Shown one piece after another: positions 4,183 through 33,994 of a stretch of 64,000 nucleotides of DNA. How positions within the stretch are numbered: position 1 is the first letter of the stretch; each line of letters begins with the position of its first letter. Below the pieces are notes generated by a model, which ran no database searches, was not told where the DNA came from, and worked only from the letters and a program-made list of their open reading frames with translations. A program made the position numbers and the translations under genes. The DNA is taken from assembly GCF_023336905.1 (NCBI RefSeq), contig NZ_JAMBLS010000016.1, forward strand, positions 1 to 64,000, read 5' to 3'. This stretch comes from Bacteroides sp. ET71 (GTDB lineage Bacteria > Bacteroidota > Bacteroidia > Bacteroidales > Bacteroidaceae).

Positions 4183-5046
4183 CTAAACCAATCTGTTCCT
4201 CTGAAACTTTACGTATGTGAGCCGTGTCCAGCGTACATTTTTCGTTATATAGGTACGGCTGATGCGTGCGGATTTTACTTGTACGATTTCTCCCGGTCTG
4301 AATGGATGTTCGAGTGCGGGCAGTACGCCCGATTCGTGGCTGGGGGTATGTGCTGCCACACGGAAGGTGGCGCAGTTGCCGGCTGCGTCTTTCAGCCATA
4401 ACACCTGCCGCACGTAGAAGCAGGGGGTGTTGCCTTGCACTTGCGTCCGGTAGGGGTCATCTTCTGTACATACTTTGGTGATTGTCAGTGTGAGGTCTTT
4501 TACGCTTTCTCCTTCTTTCCCTAAGAAATGTCCTTGTATCCCCTGACGGTTACGCTGTTGTTGAAAGTCCAGGTGTACCGAATGGTAAATCCTTGCAATC
4601 GCCACGAAACGTTCTTGCTTAGGTATGCGCGGTGTGAATTTGAAGGCTATCCATGCCACATAGGCTGGGTCTACGGCCAGGACTTCATGCAAAAAGTGCC
4701 CACGGTATTTGCCGAAGGACACCAAGTCGTCGCCCCGGCTTTGCATGTGTTTGGCGTTATATTCCACCACCAGAAGTCGGCGCGAGGAGTAGTAGCACCA
4801 ACTGCTGGCCATGCGCAGAGACTCTTCGGCATCGGGAGCCAGTTCGTGCAGGTAGAAGATGCTTTGGCGTCCGGGCAGCGGGGAGTAAATCCACAACGTG
4901 TAGTTGGAATGTCCGGGACGGGGCAGCACGACCAGATATGCACCTGTTTCTTTGTAGGAAGGGCGCCCTTCATTGTACTGCCGCAACCGGGTGTACAATT
5001 TCTCTTGTTCGTGCCAGGCCAGGCCGGGAAGTAATGGATTTGCCAT
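4183..5046 (-). CDS. Unknown protein with ExoX-C-like motif
   Basis: A 287-residue protein when started at the ATG at 5046 (MANPLLPG); an in-frame ATG at 5100 would add 18 basic residues that look non-conserved. The middle (about residues 125-145) has FGKYRGHFLHEVLAVDPAYV followed by W, which resembles the small C-terminal domain found in exonuclease X-like proteins (pattern FGKYKG..L.EV...DP.YV.W). No exonuclease catalytic DEDD motif is present. A role in nucleic-acid transactions is therefore only a guess. It sits upstream of parA on the same strand, separated by about 210 bp, so it is probably its own transcript. Confidence 0.7.
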   Translation of the reverse strand: MANPLLPGLAWHEQEKLYTRLRQYNEGRPSYKETGAYLVVLPRPGHSNYTLWIYSPLPGRQSIFYLHELAPDAEESLRMASSWCYYSSRRLLVVEYNAKHMQSRGDDLVSFGKYRGHFLHEVLAVDPAYVAWIAFKFTPRIPKQERFVAIARIYHSVHLDFQQQRNRQGIQGHFLGKEGESVKDLTLTITKVCTEDDPYRTQVQGNTPCFYVRQVLWLKDAAGNCATFRVAAHTPSHESGVLPALEHPFRPGEIVQVKSARISRTYITKNVRWTRLTYVKFQRNRLV

Positions 5047-24735: not shown

Positions 24736-27597
24736 TTACAACAACCTGTCCGGCGTCGCTGCCAACGTCACACGGTTCAGCCGGGCCATGTCTTCCAGCG
24801 TGGCGCCGTTGGCCGACTGCAGGTAGAAGTCCGACTCGGGCAGGAGGATGTATGCCCACTCACGCTCCAGGCGGTCAGCGGGCGGCAACGTGTTTATCTT
24901 GGCACACCAGGCTGCGGCGGCCTGTTGCTTGCAGCGGACGTTGGGGTCCCTCACCCGGTCGTCGGCCTTGGTCTCCACGACGTAGATATGCGTGGCCGTG
25001 CACACCAGGAAGTCCGGATGATAGGAAGCCAACAGTCCGTCCGTCTGCCGCACGTAGTACAGGCTGGCAAAGGCGTGCTGGCTCTCGCTGATTTTCTGAA
25101 AACGCTCCACGCAGGCATCCCGATCCAAAAACTCCATGAAAGCTTTCTCCAGCCCGCCCCCGTGCGAGGGATAGCCCAGCCGTTCGTAAATGACTTTCTG
25201 CAACTCCATGGAATAATTCTCGCGGACGCACAGTGTGGGGACAGACGAGAACCATGTCTTCTCCACCACCGCCTCACTGCACTCCACGTTCTCCTGCATC
25301 CGGTGGATGGCCACGCTCATTTCCTTGACAATATGCTGCGTGACGAGGCCGTTCTTGGAGAGCAGAATCTTCCAGTCATTATCTTGGAAGGGGTCGAACG
25401 TCCGGCCGAACAGGCGGGTACGGATATACAGGTCCAGCAGGCGCACGATGTCTGCCTGGTTAATCTGGATGGCAGGCATGGGTTGCCGGCCTCGTTTACC
25501 CACCCGGTCCATGCGGGTAGTGACGGTCCGCAACAGCTTCTGCAAGTAGTCGTTGTAGGAACGGGCGCTGAAAAGGTCGGCCTTCACCTCGTACTTGCCG
25601 AAGCGGGTCTCTGTCATCACGGCTTCGGACAGAAAGGTCTCGCCTTTCGTAGCCAGGTGCTCGCGCAGGTAGTCCAGCGTGAAGGCGGTGAAGGGAGCCA
25701 GCGTGCGGACGTCAATCTGTGCGGGCGTGATTTCCTCCTCGGCATCGCGGACCACCGTGGGCCAAAAGAAGTCGTACTCCTCGTAATCCGGCTTCAGCCC
25801 GACACGCATCAGGTCGCCCGTGGCGTTGGTGCTGCCGGCTTCTCCGGTATCCTCGGCGGCCAGGCCCTCGGCCATCAGGTCTTTGTAGAACTGCTCGAAG
25901 GCCGGGTGCTCTATGATGGAGAGCATGTCCAGGTAGGACTTGGGCTGCTGCCGTTTCACCAGCACCAGGCGGCGGTTTTCCTCTTTCTCCTCTCGGTATT
26001 GAGGCTCACGCCACATCAGGCGCAGGCCGCGGCCCACGGTCTGCTCCAGCAGGATGGGTGCCTGCGACGAACGCAGGGGGACAATGACGCAGATGTTGTT
26101 CACATCGAAGCCTTCGCGCAGCATTAGCACGGACACGATGACACGGGGTGTGGCATAGCGGTCCACATTGAACAGCCGTTCGCGCACGCGCTGCCACTCG
26201 GCTTCGCCCAATACGCCCTTGCGGTTGCTGTCGATGCGGAGAACCTCTTCTTCCGCCAGTCCCTCCCCGCGCAGGAACTGTTCTACGTAGGTGGTCACCA
26301 GGGTGTCCTCGCACATCACCAGCATCTTCGGATGCTTCGATGCGTCTATCCTCAGGAACCCTTCCTCCAGGAGTCGCAGTTTCTCCAGCCCGGCGCGCAA
26401 CATCAGCCGCTGTCCGTCGCTCAGCTCCATGACCTGTCCCCGCTCATCGCGCACGGCCCGGAAATCCAGGTGCTCCAGTTCGGTCAGTTCCTGGCGCTTG
26501 TCCAGTAGCAGGGTCTTCACCAAACCTTGGCGCATGGCGGTGGAGAGGTCAAAATCTGAGACGATGTGGGGGAAGTACAGCTTGGCCGATTTCGCCATCG
26601 TGCCCACCGTGTCGTAGGGTGTGGCCGAGAAATCCAGTTGCAGGAAGCGTCCCTGCTTGCTGCGGGCGATGTGGCTCAGGCCCTTCTGCCATTCCACCTC
26701 CACAATCTCGCCCGCCTTCTTGTGCTCGTGGATGTGGTGCGCCTCGTCGTTGATGACCATCAGTTCGGGCAGTGCAGCCAGGTAGTCCACCACGTCGCCG
26801 CGCAGGAAGCGGCGGTCCAGGGTATCGAGGACGTTGCCCGCACTGGTGCCGGGGCGCACGGGAAAGAGGCTCGTCACCACATCTTCTTCCTCCTCCTCTT
26901 TCTCCGCCAGGAAGATGTGCCAGTTGGTCAGGGCTATCAGTCCGTCGCCCGTCACCTTGCGGCCTATGTTGTCCTTGTCCGCCGTGTTGGTCTCAATGAA
27001 GCTGAACGCCTCCTCGCGATAGGCTGGCGGCAGAAAGAGTTCCGCGTTGCGGTGGAAGTCGTTGGTCTGCACATCGCGTTCAGCCGTGCCGGGACGCAAG
27101 CGGCCGCAGTAAGCATCGAGCAGGCGGTCGTAGACAATGAGCCCCGGGGCCACCACCAGAAAATGGCGGGTGTAGCGGCCCGAGGGAGTCTCTTCGCGGC
27201 GGGCATTGAGAAACTGCCACAGCATCAGGGCGTGCATCACCCAAGTTTTGCCTGTGCCGGTGGCCATCTTCACGGCATATTTGGGGAAGCTGTACTTCTC
27301 CTGCGCCAGTGTGCCCAAGTCGGCTTCGGGCAACAGGTCCGGTGCCACTTGTTCGTAGACATCAAGCACGGTCTGCACGTGCAGCACCTCGTGCAGATAG
27401 ATAATATTCAGGATGGACTGCCGCTGTCCTTCGTGGAAATTGCAGGGACGCTCGTCCACATAGGGTTCGGTAAACCAATAACGCAGGAGGTCGGCCGTCA
27501 CAGACGTTACTGCTTCCAGCATCGAGCTGTCGGCCCAGGCCGTCTGTACCTGTTCGTTCAGGCGGCGGGCCAGTTCAAGGGAAATATCTGGTTTCAT
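24736..27597 (-). CDS. res: Type III restriction endonuclease subunit (Res)
   Basis: A 953-residue SF2 helicase-nuclease. Walker A is MATGTGKTWVMHALMLWQF (about residue 113), the DEAH-like box VINDEAHHIHEH (about 285), motif III LDFSATPYD, and motif VI QTVGRGLRL. Near residues 862-876 PDFLV…VVETK is a PD-(D/E)XK cleavage motif. In type III systems two facing unmethylated asymmetric sites are needed for cleavage, which Res carries out with Mod. The gene is transcribed after mod, with a 224-bp spacer filled by a palindrome. Converges on the AraC gene, 34 bp apart. Confidence 0.93.
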   Translation of the reverse strand: MKPDISLELARRLNEQVQTAWADSSMLEAVTSVTADLLRYWFTEPYVDERPCNFHEGQRQSILNIIYLHEVLHVQTVLDVYEQVAPDLLPEADLGTLAQEKYSFPKYAVKMATGTGKTWVMHALMLWQFLNARREETPSGRYTRHFLVVAPGLIVYDRLLDAYCGRLRPGTAERDVQTNDFHRNAELFLPPAYREEAFSFIETNTADKDNIGRKVTGDGLIALTNWHIFLAEKEEEEEDVVTSLFPVRPGTSAGNVLDTLDRRFLRGDVVDYLAALPELMVINDEAHHIHEHKKAGEIVEVEWQKGLSHIARSKQGRFLQLDFSATPYDTVGTMAKSAKLYFPHIVSDFDLSTAMRQGLVKTLLLDKRQELTELEHLDFRAVRDERGQVMELSDGQRLMLRAGLEKLRLLEEGFLRIDASKHPKMLVMCEDTLVTTYVEQFLRGEGLAEEEVLRIDSNRKGVLGEAEWQRVRERLFNVDRYATPRVIVSVLMLREGFDVNNICVIVPLRSSQAPILLEQTVGRGLRLMWREPQYREEKEENRRLVLVKRQQPKSYLDMLSIIEHPAFEQFYKDLMAEGLAAEDTGEAGSTNATGDLMRVGLKPDYEEYDFFWPTVVRDAEEEITPAQIDVRTLAPFTAFTLDYLREHLATKGETFLSEAVMTETRFGKYEVKADLFSARSYNDYLQKLLRTVTTRMDRVGKRGRQPMPAIQINQADIVRLLDLYIRTRLFGRTFDPFQDNDWKILLSKNGLVTQHIVKEMSVAIHRMQENVECSEAVVEKTWFSSVPTLCVRENYSMELQKVIYERLGYPSHGGGLEKAFMEFLDRDACVERFQKISESQHAFASLYYVRQTDGLLASYHPDFLVCTATHIYVVETKADDRVRDPNVRCKQQAAAAWCAKINTLPPADRLEREWAYILLPESDFYLQSANGATLEDMARLNRVTLAATPDRLL

Positions 27598-27626: not shown

Positions 27627-27811
27627 GAACCACAGATGATACAGATATGGCACAGATGGACACAGATGTATTTGTCACCCCGAGCGTAGTCGAGGGGGCT
27701 CACATAAGGCTTCCTCATACGTTACGTGAGATGTCTCGACAAGCTCGACATGACAGATTCTATTAATAAATCAGTGCAAATCTGTTCTATCTGTGTCATC
27801 TGTGGTCAATC
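27627..27811. repeat. Three-level nested palindrome between mod and res
   Basis: Outer arms ACCACAGATGATACAGAT (27629-27646) and its near-complement at 27789-27806 (one mismatch); middle arms TGTCACCCCGAGC (27673-27685) with GCTCGACATGACA (27743-27755); inner arms CTCACATAA (27699-27707) with TTACGTGAG (27722-27730). It fills most of the 224-bp spacer of the R-M operon, so it may act as an mRNA processing or attenuation structure. Same family as the elements at 30068, 30895 and 33812. Confidence 0.8.
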
Positions 27812-27821
27812 CACTAAATTA

Positions 27822-29750
27822 TCATTTCATCGTTTCCACCACCATGCTTTCAAATCCGAACACGTCCACCGCCTTGACGCACACTGTACGTCCGGCTCGA
27901 CGGGGCACACGGAGCACGGCCGTATAGACGCAGTGCAGCGGGTCGCGGTCGTTGGCGGTGTTCTCGCGGTAGTCCTGCCAGCGGCTACGGAAGGTGATGC
28001 CGTCATAGTCGGGGTCGATGCTCCAGTATTCGATGAGGGCCAGCGGGTCGCGGTCGATGACCTGTTGCAACTTCTCCTTGTCGCGGTCGTCCAGGGGGAT
28101 ATTGTCCGGCGAGAGGAGGACGTAGTTGTCCAGTTCCACCACCAGGTTGTCCTCGTCCTCCGAGGCGGGCAGCACCTTCATGGGGCGGCAGGTGAGGTAT
28201 TGCAGGGTGCTGAAGCGCACCGACTTGTCGTCCACCAGCTTCTTCAGGCCTTTCTTGGCAAGTTTGTCCAGGAGGTCGGGCGGGATGACCAGCACTTCTA
28301 CCGCACCCTCGTAGCGGCGGATGGCCTCGCTGATGTCGAAGGCGAAGTTCCAGCCCAGCACCACCACCTTGGCCCAACCGCCTCCCAGCAGGGTCTGGCG
28401 TGCCTCGTACGCACGGCGCAGGGTAGCGGTGCCTGTCAGTTTGTTGGGGCTGTCCACCAGCACCAGGGTGCGCGTGGACTTCAGGTAGCCCCAGTTGCGG
28501 TCGTTGAGTTGCTCTTCGGTGAAAGGGATGGCGCCGTACAACTGCATCACAATGCGGCTCAGGTCGCCCACTTTCTTCACCAACTTGCTGCTGCTGAAGG
28601 CTTCCTTCTGATAGTCGCCAATGCCTTGGTAGAGGAAGGGCTTTACGCCTTGGTCGATGAAACGCTTGCGCATGATGAGGGAAGCAGGCTTGCCGATGTC
28701 GCAGGTTATCCAGCGACGACCCAGACGTTCGGCCACGGCGGCCGTGGTGCCGCTCCCACCAAAGAAGTCGCAGACAAGGTCGCCTTCGTTGCTGCTGGCT
28801 TTGATGATGCGTTCGAGGAGGGCTTCGGGCTTTTGGGTGGCATAACCCCTTCTCTGTGGATCCTTTTGTTGAATATGATTAATGTCAAACCATACATCTG
28901 GCAATAAAACTGGTTCATCATCATAATAACGATATATTTTCCCAGCAGACTTTATAGTCCTATATATGCGACCATCTTCATCTATTTCTTTTTTAAGATT
29001 ATTCCACTTATCTACAAGTGTTCCACAAGCTTGGCATCTATTACGCGGGAATGTGGCATCTTTATCATTAAAACAAGTATTCTGTCCTCTTTTATAAAAA
29101 TAAAGAATATCATGTTTTCTTGCGAAACAACTCATAGGTATTCCCCCACTTTGATAATGCCAAACTATTTCATTCATTAGATTAGCTTTTCCAAATATAT
29201 CATCCATCAAAATCTTTACATACGCCCCCACGTGCCAATCAATATGTACATAAATACTTCCCTTCTCCGAAAGCAATTCCCTCATCAATAACAGCCGTGG
29301 ATACATCATCCTCAGATAAGACACCGTTCCGTCCTTCCAAGTATCACTATATGCAGCCTGCTCCAGCACCGTTGGCTTCTGCTCAATCTCTACACCGGGT
29401 AGATTAATCTTTGTCCGATAATCCGCCTTGCTGTCAAAAGGTGGGTCAATGTAAATAAGGTCCACCTTGCCCCGGAACGATGGAAGCCCCGTAGCCTCAT
29501 CACCTACTAACAAGGCCTGCATGGTCAGCAGATTCTCCCCGTAAATCAAGCGGTTCATCCACTGCCCGCGAAGAGAAAATTGTGGCAATTCGCCCCGCCA
29601 AAGTCCGGATATATCTTTGGAGGGCAAGACGAGTTCATTGGTTTGCAGCCCGATGCGCGTACCACTGTTGATACGCTCCAGGAGTTGCTGAGCTTCCCGT
29701 CTGCCCTCGGCTGCTATTTTGGGCAGTTCTTCAAGTAGTGACTTTGGCAT
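27822..29750 (-). CDS. mod: Type III DNA methyltransferase subunit (Mod)
   Basis: A 642-residue adenine-N6 methyltransferase. [12 protein letters not shown] (DPPF at about 102-105) is catalytic motif IV and [13 protein letters not shown] (about 325-336) the SAM-binding motif I, giving the beta-class order. Between them lies the target-recognition domain with CQAC (239-242), a possible half of a metal site. Nucleotides about 28853-29260 (residues 163-300) are strikingly AT-rich against GC-rich flanks, the signature of TRD exchange. The start ATG at 29750 lies close downstream of a structured leader. Mod gives sequence specificity and protects host DNA; Res follows in the operon. Confidence 0.93.
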
Positions 29751-29801
29751 AAGTTATAGCTATTTGCGCAATGCTACTCTCTATTTTTTCTCAGGAGACA
29801 C

Positions 29802-29939
29802 AAAAAAACGCGAGCCTTAACTTGCTCACGTTGTGGTCCTGAGAAAACCATTAAGAGTACAAGTTATGCCCGCGCTATGCGCAGACATCTACAACTTGTT
29901 CAACTCTTAATATTTGAAATTTCTCAGGTTTCAACGTGA
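29802..29939 (-). ncRNA. Rod-like RNA with overlapping terminator upstream of mod
   Basis: On the minus strand five nested stems can form: TCACGTTG/CAACGTGA (29939-29932 with 29833-29826), CCTGAGAAA/TTTCTCAGG (29928-29920 with 29846-29838), ATTAAGAGT/ACTCTTAAT (29911-29903 with 29858-29850), ACAAGTT/AACTTGT (29899-29893 with 29865-29859) and ATGTCTGCGC/GCGCGGGCAT (29888-29879 with 29875-29866) with a 3-nt loop. Next comes CGTGAGC, an 8-nt loop, GCTCGCG and seven T (29830-29802), a terminator hairpin. CGTGA is shared by the rod's closing arm and the terminator, so the two structures exclude each other. TTTCTCAGG can also pair with a second CCTGAGAAA at 29795-29787. This looks like a regulated leader; a free small RNA (a 6S-like shape) or a DNA palindrome are alternatives. 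Confidence 0.6.
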
Positions 29940-30013
29940 TAGAACAAATAGCAAATGCTAATTAGTAATCCAATAAAATGAAAACCGCCGCCACTGCAGC
30001 CTTGTTTTCGGGC

Positions 30014-30042
30014 GTAAAGATACGGAATAAAGTCTTTATTCC
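30014..30042 (-). promoter_or_regulatory. Possible mod promoter with palindromic operator
   Basis: Minus-strand TATCTTTA (30021-30014) is one base off TAnnTTTG and could start the mod leader, about 260 nt before the ATG. A perfect 9-bp inverted repeat GGAATAAAG T CTTTATTCC (30024-30042) lies directly upstream of it. This is an inferred promoter-operator pair. Confidence 0.35.
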
Positions 30043-30067: not shown

Positions 30068-30195
30068 CGCTTAAAATTCATTTTCCCTGTCACCCCGAGC
30101 CATAGTCGAGGGGCCTCACATACGGCCTACCCATGACAAATACAGTTTAAGGAATCTGTGCAAACCAGTCCCGGCTGTGCCATCTGTGGTTAATC
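30068..30195. repeat. Mosaic REP-like element upstream of mod
   Basis: AAAATTCATTTTCCCTGTCACCCCGAG… followed by a shortened hairpin and CCATCTGTGGTTAATCCC, repeating in the same order as the right half of the 27627-27811 element. Apart from the repeats described here, the region 29940-30760 shows no gene I can support. Confidence 0.6.
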
Positions 30196-30496: not shown

Positions 30497-30562
30497 GCTA
30501 TCCCTTCGCTATTCCTTCGCTATTCCTTCGCTATCCCTTCGCTATCCCTTCGCTATTTCTTC
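30497..30562. repeat. 11-bp tandem repeat, six units
   Basis: Six contiguous units of GCTATYCCTTC (30497, 30508, 30519, 30530, 30541) and a last GCTATTTCTTC (30552). It is a C/T-rich track on the plus strand in a gene-free stretch. Confidence 0.9.
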
Positions 30563-30748: not shown

Positions 30749-30890
30749 CCATAATCTTGTAACCCCCGTTGTCAACTATGCCGCCGCTACGGCGCTGGTG
30801 GAGTATGACCCGTCACAGACCTCTCCCGAAGCCCTGCAACACGCGGTGCAGGAGGCCGGCTATGACCTCGTCATCATCGCCTTCATCCTG
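30749..30890 (+). pseudogene. Doubly deleted copA remnant
   Basis: This sequence matches the copA gene about 500 bp to its right. CCATAATCTTGTAAC corresponds to 31079-31093; then a jump to 31270-31374 (HMA second half; 6 differences in about 100 bp, all synonymous third-position changes); then a jump to 31742-31763 (TM segment VIIAFILL). About 170 and 370 bp are missing. A palindromic element (30895-30975) follows directly, ending the similarity. It cannot encode a working ATPase. The synonymous-only divergence suggests it came from a copA that was under selection. Confidence 0.85.
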
Positions 30891-31155: not shown

Positions 31156-33807
31156 ATGGAAAAGACTACTACCCAAGACACCTTTCCCATCCTGGGAATG
31201 AGTTGCGCCGCCTGTGCCGCCCGTGTGGACAAGACTTTGAACAAGCAACCGGGCGTATGCCACGCAGCCGTCAACTATGCCGCCGCTACGGCACTGGTGG
31301 AATATGACCCGTCACAAACCTCGCCCGAAGCCCTGCAACACGCGGTGCAGGAGGCTGGCTACGACCTCGTCATCACCCACGACGAACACACGGCGGACGA
31401 GGTGGAAGAGGCACACCGCAAGACATACCAATCGCTGAAGCGACGCACCACGTGGGCCATCCTCCTGGCCATCCCCATCGCCGTCATCGGCATGGGCTTC
31501 ATGGACCGGCCTTGGGCGGGCTGGAGCACGTGGCTGCTGTCCACGCCCGTAGTCTTCGGGCTGGGGCGCAGCTTCTTCGTCAATGCGTGGAAACAACTGC
31601 GCCACGGCTCGGCCAACATGGACACCTTGGTGGCCAGCAGCACGGGCGTGGCCTATCTGTTCAGCGTGTTCAACCTGTTCTTCCCCGATTTCTGGCTGTC
31701 CCGTAGCATCACGCCGCACGTCTACTTCGAGTCGTCGAGCGTCATCATCGCCTTCATCTTGCTGGGACGATTGCTGGAAGAGCGGGCCAAGGGCCATACC
31801 TCGCAGGCCATCAAGAAGCTGATGGGATTGCAGCCCAAGACCGTCACCCTAATCATTGAGAATGAAGAACCAAATCTTAATTCTTCATTAAAAGAGGTTC
31901 CCATCGAGCAGATAGGTCCCGGCGACATCATCCAGGTGAAGCCGGGCGAACGTATCGCCGTGGACGGCGTGGTGACGGAAGGAAGCTCTTACGTGGACGA
32001 AAGCATGCTGAGCGGCGAACCCGTGCCTGTGGCCAAACGACCGGACGACAAGGTCTATGCCGGCACCATCAACCAGAAAGGCAGTTTCCGCTTCCGCGCG
32101 GAGAAGGTGGGGACGGACACCCTGCTGGCGAAGATTATCCACTTGGTGCAGGATGCGCAAGGCTCCAAGGCGCCCGTGCAGAAGCTGGTGGACCGGGTGG
32201 CGGCTGTCTTTGTGCCGACCATCATGGGCATCGCATTGCTCTCGTTCATCCTCTGGATGATGCTCGACTCCTCGGAAGGCTTTACCCACGGCCTGCTGGC
32301 ACTGGTGACGGTACTCATCATCGCCTGTCCCTGCGCCTTGGGACTGGCTACCCCCACGGCCATCATGGTAGGCATCGGCAAGGGGGCCGAGCGGGGCATC
32401 CTCATTAAAGATGCCGAGAGCCTGGAGACAGCCAAGAGAGTGAATGTCGTAGTGCTGGACAAGACGGGCACGGTGACCGAAGGGCATCCCGTCGTGCAAC
32501 ACATCCTTTGGGCTGATGATGAGGCTAAGGCATACGCTCCTGTCCTGTTGGCTTTGGAAAAAATGTCTGAACACCCGCTGGCAGAAGCAATCTTGGGGAA
32601 TGAAGAACTGAATCTTAATGAAGAATTAAGAATGAAGAATGAAGAATTTGCCGCTTTCAACGAACATTCTTCATTTCCCCGCGAAGCGGGTATTCTTCAT
32701 TCTTCATTTAAAAAGGTGGATGGATTCGAGAGCGTGACGGGACAAGGCGTAAAGGGCAGCTATAACGGCATTTCCTACTATGCGGGCAACCGCCGCCTGA
32801 TGCAAGGCCGCCGTATCTCTTCCGCCCTGCAAGAAAACGCCTCAGCGTGGGAAGCAGAAGGACAAACCATCGTCTGGTTTGCCAATGAGACGGAAGTCCT
32901 GGCCGTCATCGCCATTGCCGACCGCATTAAGCCTTCGTCCGTCCATGCCATCCGCACCCTGCAAGCCGAGGGGGTAGAAGTCCACCTGCTGACGGGCGAC
33001 AACGAAGCCACCGCCAAGGTCATTGCCCGCCAGGCCGGCATCACGAAATACAAAGCCGGCGTATTGCCACAGGACAAGGCAGCTTACATCGGCCAGTTGC
33101 AAAAGGAGGGCAAGGTGGTGGCCATGGTGGGCGACGGCATCAACGACAGCGCCGCCCTGGCTCGTGCCGACCTGAGCATTGCCATGGGCAGCGGCAGCGA
33201 CATTGCCATGGACGTGGCGAAGATGACACTCATCTCGTCCGACCTGCGCAAGATACCCGAAGCCTTGCAACTCTCGCGCCTCACCGTGCGTACCATCCGG
33301 CAGAACCTCTTCTGGGCATTTATCTACAATATGATAAGCGTGCCTATCGCCGCCGGCGTGCTCTACCCCGTCTGCGGCTTCCTGCTCAACCCCATGATTG
33401 GCGGGGCAGCCATGGCTTTCAGCAGTGTCAGCGTGGTGACCAATAGCCTGCGCCTGCGCCGGAAGAAGCTCTCTTCTAATGAAGAACGAAAAATGAAGAA
33501 CGAAGAATCCACTTTGAATGAAGAACTAATAATGAAGAATGAAGAATCAAGGGATATATGTCAAACTAAAACAGAAGAAAAGACAATGGAAAAGCAATTC
33601 AAAGTAAGCGGCATGATGTGTCAACACTGCCGTATGCACGTAGAGAAGGCATTGAACAAGTTGGAAGGCGTCAGCGCCACCGTCACCCTCGACCCGCCCG
33701 TGGCCACGGTGAAGTTTAGCGGGAAGGAGTATTCATTGGCTGAACTTCAGCAACAGGTGACGGAAGAGGCCGGTGAATATACGCTGAGCGATGACATTTT
33801 GCTGTAA
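31156..33807 (+). CDS. copA: Cu+ P1B-type ATPase with C-terminal CopZ-like domain
   Basis: An 883-residue ATPase for copper(I) efflux. N-terminal HMA domain GMSCAACAARVDK (Cys17, Cys20); CPC in IACPCALGLATPTAIM (about 391); phosphorylation site LDKTGTVTEG (Asp about 435); MSEHPLAEAI HP motif; MVGDGINDSAALARADLSIA. ATG at 31156 chosen by its RBS and by the HMA start. Three in-frame stretches rich in NEE/SSF (about 232-248, 481-520, 773-809) come from an intergenic repeat. The last 73 residues (from Met811) are a second HMA domain (GMMCQHCRMHVEKAL), normally a separate CopZ-type chaperone in relatives (recalled, not verified here). Confidence 0.9.
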   Translation: MEKTTTQDTFPILGMSCAACAARVDKTLNKQPGVCHAAVNYAAATALVEYDPSQTSPEALQHAVQEAGYDLVITHDEHTADEVEEAHRKTYQSLKRRTTWAILLAIPIAVIGMGFMDRPWAGWSTWLLSTPVVFGLGRSFFVNAWKQLRHGSANMDTLVASSTGVAYLFSVFNLFFPDFWLSRSITPHVYFESSSVIIAFILLGRLLEERAKGHTSQAIKKLMGLQPKTVTLIIENEEPNLNSSLKEVPIEQIGPGDIIQVKPGERIAVDGVVTEGSSYVDESMLSGEPVPVAKRPDDKVYAGTINQKGSFRFRAEKVGTDTLLAKIIHLVQDAQGSKAPVQKLVDRVAAVFVPTIMGIALLSFILWMMLDSSEGFTHGLLALVTVLIIACPCALGLATPTAIMVGIGKGAERGILIKDAESLETAKRVNVVVLDKTGTVTEGHPVVQHILWADDEAKAYAPVLLALEKMSEHPLAEAILGNEELNLNEELRMKNEEFAAFNEHSSFPREAGILHSSFKKVDGFESVTGQGVKGSYNGISYYAGNRRLMQGRRISSALQENASAWEAEGQTIVWFANETEVLAVIAIADRIKPSSVHAIRTLQAEGVEVHLLTGDNEATAKVIARQAGITKYKAGVLPQDKAAYIGQLQKEGKVVAMVGDGINDSAALARADLSIAMGSGSDIAMDVAKMTLISSDLRKIPEALQLSRLTVRTIRQNLFWAFIYNMISVPIAAGVLYPVCGFLLNPMIGGAAMAFSSVSVVTNSLRLRRKKLSSNEERKMKNEESTLNEELIMKNEESRDICQTKTEEKTMEKQFKVSGMMCQHCRMHVEKALNKLEGVSATVTLDPPVATVKFSGKEYSLAELQQQVTEEAGEYTLSDDILL
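31851..31900. repeat. In-frame repeat insertion 1 in copA
   Basis: AATGAAGAACCAAATCTTAA followed by TTCTTCATTAAA forms an inverted repeat (AATGAAGAA / TTCTTCATT). It encodes ENEEPNLNSSLKE in the actuator-domain region between LQPKTVTLI and VPIEQIGPGD, where relatives have a short loop. Confidence 0.7.
32599..32712. repeat. In-frame repeat insertion 2 in copA
   Basis: Multiple AATGAAGAAT units, a core GAATTTGCCGCT, then ATTCTTCATT units; arms are inverted repeats. Read in frame it adds about 30 residues ([20 protein letters not shown]…) to the nucleotide-binding domain between HPLAEAIL and VDGFESVTGQGV. The same core is at 41290-41345. Confidence 0.85.
33475..33583. repeat. In-frame repeat insertion 3 joining copA to a CopZ-like domain
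   Basis: Four spaced AATGAAGAA units without a stop link the last transmembrane helix to the CopZ-like domain (SSNEERKMKNEESTLNEEL…). A well-placed AGAAAAG and an ATG at 33586 follow, so the C-terminal domain could also be made on its own (33586-33807, 73 residues). Confidence 0.75.
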
Positions 33808-33811
33808 ATAA

Positions 33812-33994
33812 GAGCTGTCGTTTAAAAATCGCTCTCTCTGTCATGTTGAGCATTGCTCTCCCCCGCCAAACGGGGGAGCAAAGAGGGGGTTGAAGCGTAG
33901 TCGAAACATCTCCCTAATACTTTTCAGGTGCGTAGTGAGGCCCCTCGACTGTGCTCGGGGTGACAGAGCAAATGAAAATTTAAACGACAGGCTC
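33812..33994. repeat. Large palindromic element after copA
   Basis: Outer arms contain GAGCTGTCGTTTAAAAAT (33812 on) and, inverted, ATTTAAACGACAGGCTC (33978-33994). Inner arms CTGTCATGTTGAGC and GCTCGGGGTGACAG. It also has the CGCCAAACGGGGGAGC block of the 18060 spacer. It starts 5 bp after the copA stop. Confidence 0.75.

Follow-up and report, generated by a model that had tools for sequence, protein, structure and literature searches.

Genomic context and predicted structure of the leader

The window (the whole stretch of 64,000 nucleotides analysed here, from contig NZ_JAMBLS010000016.1 of Bacteroides sp. ET71) carries a type III DNA methyltransferase gene (mod) and a type III restriction subunit-like gene (res) on one strand, 224 nt apart, and the coding strand of mod (the minus strand) has, in the region upstream of this gene, nested stems (P1, P2, and P3) with an apical hairpin. 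The features are given below in the direction of transcription, the two sides of the rod formed by the nested stems being designated arm A and arm B and the two pseudoknots PK1 and PK2.

30015..30022, minus strand: -7 promoter-like box TATCTTTA, one mismatch to TAnnTTTG
29980..30009, minus strand: 5' hairpin GAAAAC..GCTGC-AGTG-GCGGC..GTTTTC, near the expected transcript head (from sequence and minimum free energy (MFE) fold)
29949..29960, minus strand: P0 small hairpin TAGCATTTGCTA, its position conserved in the alignment
29942..29947, minus strand: x strand of PK1 (TTGTTC), partner y (family test z -12.9)
29939-29932, minus strand: P1 5' strand TCACGTTG, pairing with the 3' strand CAACGTGA at 29833-29826
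29928-29921, minus strand: P2 5' strand CCTGAGAA, part of arm A, pairing with the 3' strand TTCTCAGG at 29845-29838
29911-29903, minus strand: P3 5' strand ATTAAGAGT, pairing with the 3' strand ACTCTTAAT at 29858-29850
29896..29901, minus strand: y strand of PK1 (GAACAA), partner x
29872..29883, minus strand: P4 apical hairpin TGCGC-AT-AGCGC (from fold and family alignment)
29859..29865, minus strand: z strand of PK2 (AACTTGT) (family test z -14.3)
29838..29858, minus strand: core of arm B, made up of the P3 3' strand (29858-29850) and the P2 3' strand (29845-29838)
29819..29824, minus strand: w strand of PK2 (CAAGTT), within the terminator hairpin loop
29802..29832, minus strand: intrinsic-terminator-like hairpin (29832-29807) with seven T (29808-29802)
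29738..29804, minus strand: segment D, alternative partner of arm B, including CCTGAGAAA (29795-29787) and the mod start codon
27822..29750, minus strand: mod, type III DNA methyltransferase gene, 642 aa (PADLOC MTase_III, E 1.6e-75)
24736..27597, minus strand: res, type III restriction subunit-like gene, 953 aa (PADLOC REase_III, E 4.3e-24, matching part of the protein)

The initial annotation had described nested stems followed by a terminator with seven T on the coding strand of mod, a CGTGA shared by rod and terminator, and a second partner for one arm of the rod, and all of these are present: CGTGA is common to the P1 3' strand and the terminator hairpin, the P2 3' strand has a second perfect partner (CCTGAGAAA at 29795-29787), and the seven-T tract stops 51 nt short of the mod ATG (29750-29748). 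The coordinates proposed there (29787..29939) are also right and cover the middle of the element, to which the full element adds an upstream hairpin, a strand able to pair with the rod, the -7 box, and a segment running past the mod start codon. The region 29780-29950 folds on the minus strand with an MFE of -63 kcal/mol (z -6.2), equalled by none of 200 shuffles, and the plus strand folds equally well (z -6.7) because the region is palindromic. The rod of the window has an inner helix (ACAAGTT/AACTTGT) that overlaps strand y of PK1 and strand z of PK2, and rod helix and pseudoknots may therefore compete in this copy. Hairpins with an AGTG loop like that of the 5' hairpin were seen by eye at the equivalent place in leaders of HSDR_N genes.

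A match to Mod is found in 8 of the 151 genomes of the family, this genome included. The leader accompanies the two matches at 71-72% identity (from another genus) and is absent from the five matches at 43-48% identity over part of the length; it is also present at three further loci (L003, L004, and L031), where Mod is 68% identical.

Several other repeats were observed nearby. A dispersed repeat (85-90% identical) occurs at 27673-27718 in the gap between mod and res, at 30088-30134 upstream of the leader, and at 33931-33976 after a P-type ATPase-like ORF. A 106 bp repeat (94% identical) lies at 30771-30876 and 31270-31375, in the start region of the same ORF and in an upstream copy, and is perhaps a duplication remnant. 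Short tandem repeats of CTATCCCTTCG/CTATTCCTTCG occupy 30501-30560, in noncoding sequence ahead of the leader.

Compensatory changes in nested stems and pseudoknots

In an alignment of 77 homologous matches (75 distinct), which was fitted to the covariance model and hence leans towards it, 97.9% of cells are paired, and this proportion falls to 34.5-45.3% when the partner is slid. Both sides are changed in 423 cells versus 116 ± 8 in shuffles; absence of covariation, which had been named as an outcome that would speak against the structure, is thus not the case. Double changes occur in 18 of the 19 pairs and shuffles give 15.2 such pairs, so that it is the cell counts that discriminate. All seven modelled pairs of P1 are changed on both sides in the 77-match alignment, and the same holds for the seven of P2, which is 99.6% paired in the 75 distinct copies. 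A MAFFT alignment, which was not fitted to the model, has P1 doubly changed in 24-36 of 56 sequences at six of the seven pairs.

The helices were further examined by comparing the own strand pair of each of 65 non-redundant copies with pairs permuted between copies. Strong signals were obtained for P1 (z -28.5) and P3 (z -21.3), as well as for PK1 (z -12.9), formed by a strand 5' of P1 and the 5' arm of the rod, and PK2 (z -14.3), formed by the 3' arm of the rod and the strand just 3' of P1. On inspection, the two pseudoknots are compatible with P1-P3 in many copies. These compensatory base changes across homologues argue that the predicted structure is that of an RNA family and not a chance fold. 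The P0 hairpin is without support in the duplex test (z 0.3) despite its conserved sequence, the test windows being possibly badly placed. A candidate third pseudoknot (PK3), between the terminator loop and a last hairpin near the start codon, looked good by eye in several copies and was rejected after failing the permutation test (z -0.8 and -2.0).

A large RNA family absent from Rfam

No match to Rfam 15 reached the gathering score in the whole window, and a permissive scan gave three matches in the region and two in 18 homologous loci, all below that score; no 6S, retron, HEARO-like, or other known RNA was thereby recognised in window, region, and homologous loci. Relatives with jointly changed P2 arms were found by BLAST in the genus and the family. 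A pattern scan of the genome collection yielded at least 116 loci, a biased set because it was found through one exact P2 sequence, in Bacteroidales, Pedobacter, Niabella, Dyadobacter, Larkinella, and metagenome-assembled genomes of Kiritimatiellota and Verrucomicrobiota. In the RNA tree, the copies from the latter two phyla group by themselves (8 rows, support 99/93), which disfavours simple contamination.

Searches with a covariance model built from 56 copies are independent of the exact P2 sequence, though the model was trained mostly on copies that have it. With this model, 35 of the 41 genomes of the genus were positive at E<=1e-5 (with a maximum of 14 copies per genome). In the phylum, the model detected the RNA in at least 44 of 395 genomes, a number that is too low because only 7 candidates were scored per genome. 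The genome studied here has five copies (E<1e-6), which are strongly diverged from one another. In viral contigs, a 17-base core was present in 12 stretches, of which 7 matched the covariance model, and the plasmid collection gave no match to the element.

When copies were aligned in pairs, 1004 of 1121 alignments ended within 260 nt of the conserved GAAACC, i.e., the RNA alone is shared, and pairs with the same next gene had alignments extending into that gene. Nearly all of the aligned pairs start within about 140 nt before the core. The element is one copy of a large RNA family without a match in Rfam 15, which numerous bacteria of gut and soil have ahead of defence and surface genes, and the leader moves with its gene yet has been reused ahead of unrelated genes.

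Some structural and positional variants were also seen. By eye, long RNA variants with an enlarged apical part occur at six loci (L012, L039, L040, L041, L042, and L054), and a subgroup of two (L222 and L229) has about 350-470 nt between the RNA and the next ORF on the same strand, a gap which holds a further conserved AT-rich stretch with GTTCCCA. One locus (L243) has two diverging RNA copies back to back (4283-4443 on the minus strand and 4749-4912 on the plus strand, about 300 nt apart), one of which precedes AbiEi/AbiEii.

Promoter box, position, and genes behind the leader

The -7 consensus of Bacteroides promoters is TAnnTTTG according to the passages drawn on here from a transcriptome study (PMC7366714). 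Of 138 copies, 105 have this box at a distance of 45-140 nt before the core, 7 have it on the opposite strand, and 6 have it between the RNA and the gene. RNA and closest downstream ORF share a strand in 105 of 122 copies (in the other 17 the next ORF is on the opposite strand), as compared with 53 of 113 for the closest upstream ORF. Forty further copies were taken from thirteen genomes of the genus: the box is no more than 160 nt ahead of the model start in 37, an ORF begins 50-80 nt past the model end in 23, and a few are far from the next gene. A box upstream and a same-strand ORF at a constrained distance downstream indicate that the element usually forms the 5' leader of the gene behind it, and by position it would thus be a cis-regulatory one.

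The genes behind the leader were tallied from 90 of 92 downstream proteins (two duplicates were dropped). Among the 25 commonest families, whose counts overlap and are not additive, are the Pfam families Eco57I (4), EcoRI methylase (3), N6_Mtase (3), N6_N4_Mtase (3), and MmeI (2), the PADLOC MTase_II model PDLC03390 (8), HSDR_N (10), and BspA-type LRR (8). The upstream proteins (74 of 96, mostly short or duplicate ones having been removed by hand) had no R-M methyltransferase among their 25 commonest families and included two AbiEii matches and candidate defence families. A recurrent reverse transcriptase, transposase, or integrase partner was found neither among the 25 commonest families on either side nor among the identified protein clusters. 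Copies in the genus are located ahead of AbiLi/AbiLii, AbiEi/AbiEii, ZorA/ZorB, a type III restriction-like protein, and a type IIG enzyme (L265), and many are ahead of putative secreted lipoproteins, as judged from N-termini; the leader also stands ahead of another type IIG enzyme (L143) and of a single-chain enzyme of the MmeI type (L090). Its predicted targets are hence diverse, comprising R-M types I to III, Zorya, AbiE, AbiL, and putative surface lipoproteins.

A recurring gene pair was also noticed behind the RNA, namely an HSDR_N protein of about 363 aa and an adjoining Ion_trans channel-like protein of about 256 aa (L065, L134, L161, L180, L182, L185, and three IMG/VR contigs; Pfam was run on the pair of L065 and the others were assigned by protein clusters). 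It looks like an undescribed two-gene defence unit.

Terminator-like hairpin and predicted alternative pairing over the start codon

Of the 65 non-redundant copies, 30 have a terminator-like hairpin immediately after P1, versus 3.1 expected, and the remaining 35 have no recognisable terminator. Among 29 re-examined copies, the terminator overlaps the P1 3' strand in 17 and the w strand of PK2 in all 29, the latter figure being nearly forced because of where w was sought. The strands of the terminator thus overlap a competing structure, as would be expected of a terminator-type attenuator.

Arm B matches the segment D of the copy it belongs to much better than those of other copies (z -9.3); the controls gave z -0.8 (A with D) and z -0.05 (B with the upstream segment). 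This pairing was compared between leaders of R-M and other genes in 96 non-redundant copies, drawn from the 186 of 209 copies with a gene start. A first label based on the methyltransferase motif [DNS]PP[YFW] gave a weak result (6/20 vs 5/45, p 0.08) because it missed methyltransferases, e.g., that of L005. The label used, similarity to 15 seed proteins that were all confirmed by profile search, was chosen after the missed proteins had been seen, so that the enrichment in R-M leaders reported with it is partly post hoc: the median z is -5.5 in 14 R-M leaders and -0.3 in 82 others (Mann-Whitney p 1e-6), and z<=-2 is reached by 12 of 14 and 13 of 82, respectively. The two R-M leaders short of it are L088 (z -1.3) and L068, and 69 of the 82 others are above z -2, the duplex in these 82 being mostly no better than chance. 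In the R-M leaders, the observed pairing was reached by none of 20000 permutations, and the start codon lies within the best duplex in 13 of 14, as against 46 of 82 in the others, among which a helicase with defence matches (L033) was kept. The R-M set covers type I, EcoRI-type, D12-type, MmeI/IIG, and type III enzymes.

In the RNA tree, 10 of the 14 R-M leaders fall in one clade of 20 that has other genes too (95/93, the bootstrap not having settled), and the R-M label changes 11 times versus a mean of 13.3 in shuffles (12 of 500 shuffles being as low). The R-M leaders are therefore partly related by descent, and the R-M statistics overstate independence. One clade with 11 label changes suggests mainly one RNA branch that was passed among unrelated R-M systems and not many inventions.

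The B:D duplex of the window has -40.3 kcal/mol with the AUG inside. When the whole leader is folded without pseudoknots, the MFE structure keeps the rod (-102.0), 2.6 kcal/mol below a state in which the P2 3' strand is blocked by pairing with D (-99.4). The rod is missing from the MFE structure of six other mod leaders, likewise folded without pseudoknots, and there P2 can be imposed at a cost of 0.9-6.6 kcal/mol. The balance is thus close, though not equal in all. Within segment D, the sequence of the P2 5' strand recurs unchanged in the window (CCTGAGAA), L283, and L284 (CGTAGGAA in the latter two), with one change in L262, and only in part in L003, L004, and L031. In the R-M branch only, therefore, a conserved alternative pairing would cover the start codon, which is the arrangement of start-codon sequestering.

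A possible expression switch and its alternatives

Taken together, we consider it probable (roughly 0.7) that the element is a cis-acting 5' leader RNA with its own Bacteroidota promoter that continues into mod and acts as an expression switch. Such a leader may adopt two exclusive states. With the core folded (rod A:B formed and PK2 closed), PK2 and P1 would hold strands that the terminator needs and hinder its formation, and with arm B occupied, segment D and the start codon would be left free, so that mod could be transcribed and translated. With the core open, transcription would end at the terminator near 29802, and in any read-through RNA arm B would pair with D and hide the start codon; a short product ending near 29802 is likely the "off" product. 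Whatever stabilises the core, be it a small molecule, a protein, or folding speed, would in this scheme switch mod and res on. We infer the direction of the switch from the strand overlaps, and its input and effect are conjectural as well. The input is probably a host-wide factor or a metabolite and not an R-M protein, because the same core precedes unrelated genes. Since most non-R-M copies have no strong D and 35 of 65 have no terminator, one mechanism would not cover the whole family.

These results bear on the initial annotation in different ways. Its proposal of mutually exclusive structures agrees with the strong covariation, the excess of terminators, and the conservation of the second partner, foremost before R-M genes. 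Its reading of the leader as an attenuator that controls mod stands as far as a structured leader with predicted competing folds is concerned, and has to be given up in so far as it made the leader special to type III R-M, as the same RNA precedes many unrelated genes. The suggestion that the leader lets methylation precede restriction is not favoured; it has no special support because mod and res are on one strand and single-chain enzymes that combine methylation and restriction (those of L090, L143, and L265) carry the leader too.

Three other explanations were weighed. Lambdoid put RNAs and the Bacillus EAR RNA are processive antitermination leaders, and the core might similarly act on RNA polymerase, as an insulating leader that lets accessory genes be read through terminators and Rho. 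This would account for one core before unrelated genes and fits both the position of the core just after the promoter box and the embedded terminator in about half of the copies; we nevertheless regard it as unlikely, for it would leave unexplained why arm B can pair with D around the start codon in R-M leaders. It is still less probable that the element yields a small RNA that ends at the terminator and acts in trans, the gene behind it being expressed separately or through leaky read-through. The strong terminator-like site in the window, the copies whose next ORF is on the other strand, and the few far from the next gene would suit such an RNA, whereas the constrained distance to the gene start in 23 of 40 genus copies, the rarity of a promoter box between RNA and gene, and the copies without a terminator speak against it. 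A DNA element, i.e., a site for recombination or transposition (attC-like, or a MITE) that has folded single strands and carries cargo genes, is very improbable: the palindromic sequence, the start of nearly all alignments of copy pairs within about 140 nt before the core, their continuation into a common gene, the cargo-like genes, and the several phyla would agree with it, but base changes preserve pairing in the pseudoknots and in B:D, the promoter box is strand-specific, a shared end motif of a mobile unit was not seen by eye in the one same-gene group inspected, and arrays are rare. An integron attC or cassette array in particular was rejected, as only three (L081, L113, and L124) of the 100 loci, each no longer than 8 kb, have a second match (E<=0.01, different stretch).

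To return to the cis-acting switch, a broader version of it is tentative and, in our view, rather doubtful: the RNA might be a horizontally exchanged module of Bacteroidota (sporadic in Kiritimatiellota and Verrucomicrobiota) in which one double-pseudoknot sensor core reads a single cellular signal and drives varied outputs, with unrelated immune systems such as R-M types I to III, Zorya, AbiE, AbiL, and surface lipoproteins forming one RNA-controlled regulon and R-M genes having a start-codon gate of their own. R-M systems need restraint on entering a new cell, and, to our knowledge, gene-level controllers have rarely been described for types I, IIG, and III. A leader common to unrelated R-M types would be a shared answer to this need, a very common regulatory RNA of gut bacteria that targets defence systems and uncharacterised surface genes would be missing from the reference library, and there would be a handle for finding the signal that turns on bacterial immunity.

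Comparison with known systems

A 2017 paper is said to deal with 224 motifs. Thousands of candidates from the human microbiome are given in supplements according to the passages of PMC8040213 drawn on here, and an unnamed entry there may overlap this RNA family. The portions considered of the literature on leaders of R-M genes or of Bacteroidota contain no report of such a leader, and it is not described in those of PMC8040213, PMC10994844, PMC7366714, and PMC2864571. The Bacteroides transcriptome (PMC7366714), in the sections used, has long 5' UTRs with possible regulatory RNAs, which the present leader resembles in this respect, and names riboswitches by homology and ORFs like those of leader peptides; "restriction" and "methyltransferase" are absent from its main text.

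Among known RNAs, 6S RNA (Rfam RF00013, and 6S-Flavo RF01685) has a similar rod shape and length, and a free 6S-like small RNA had been the main alternative of the initial annotation. It is not favoured: neither family is among the Rfam matches of window, region, and 18 homologous loci, and unlike 6S RNA the leader has many copies per genome, is usually located before a gene, and has pseudoknots. Like put and EAR RNAs, the element is a leader RNA close to a promoter, but it differs from them in having no Rfam match, and we know of no counterpart in those RNAs to the B:D pairing over the start codon. With riboswitches and protein-binding attenuators it shares a conserved pseudoknotted core near the promoter, a terminator in strands next to or shared with this core, and a predicted alternative pairing over the start codon; it has no Rfam match and has unrelated accessory and defence genes as its targets instead of one pathway. 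Finally, known regulation of R-M systems involves C proteins and antisense RNAs, as outlined in the parts of PMC3874152 and PMC4824078 referred to here. The present element would share with these the control of R-M gene expression but differ from them in being a structured leader common to several R-M types.
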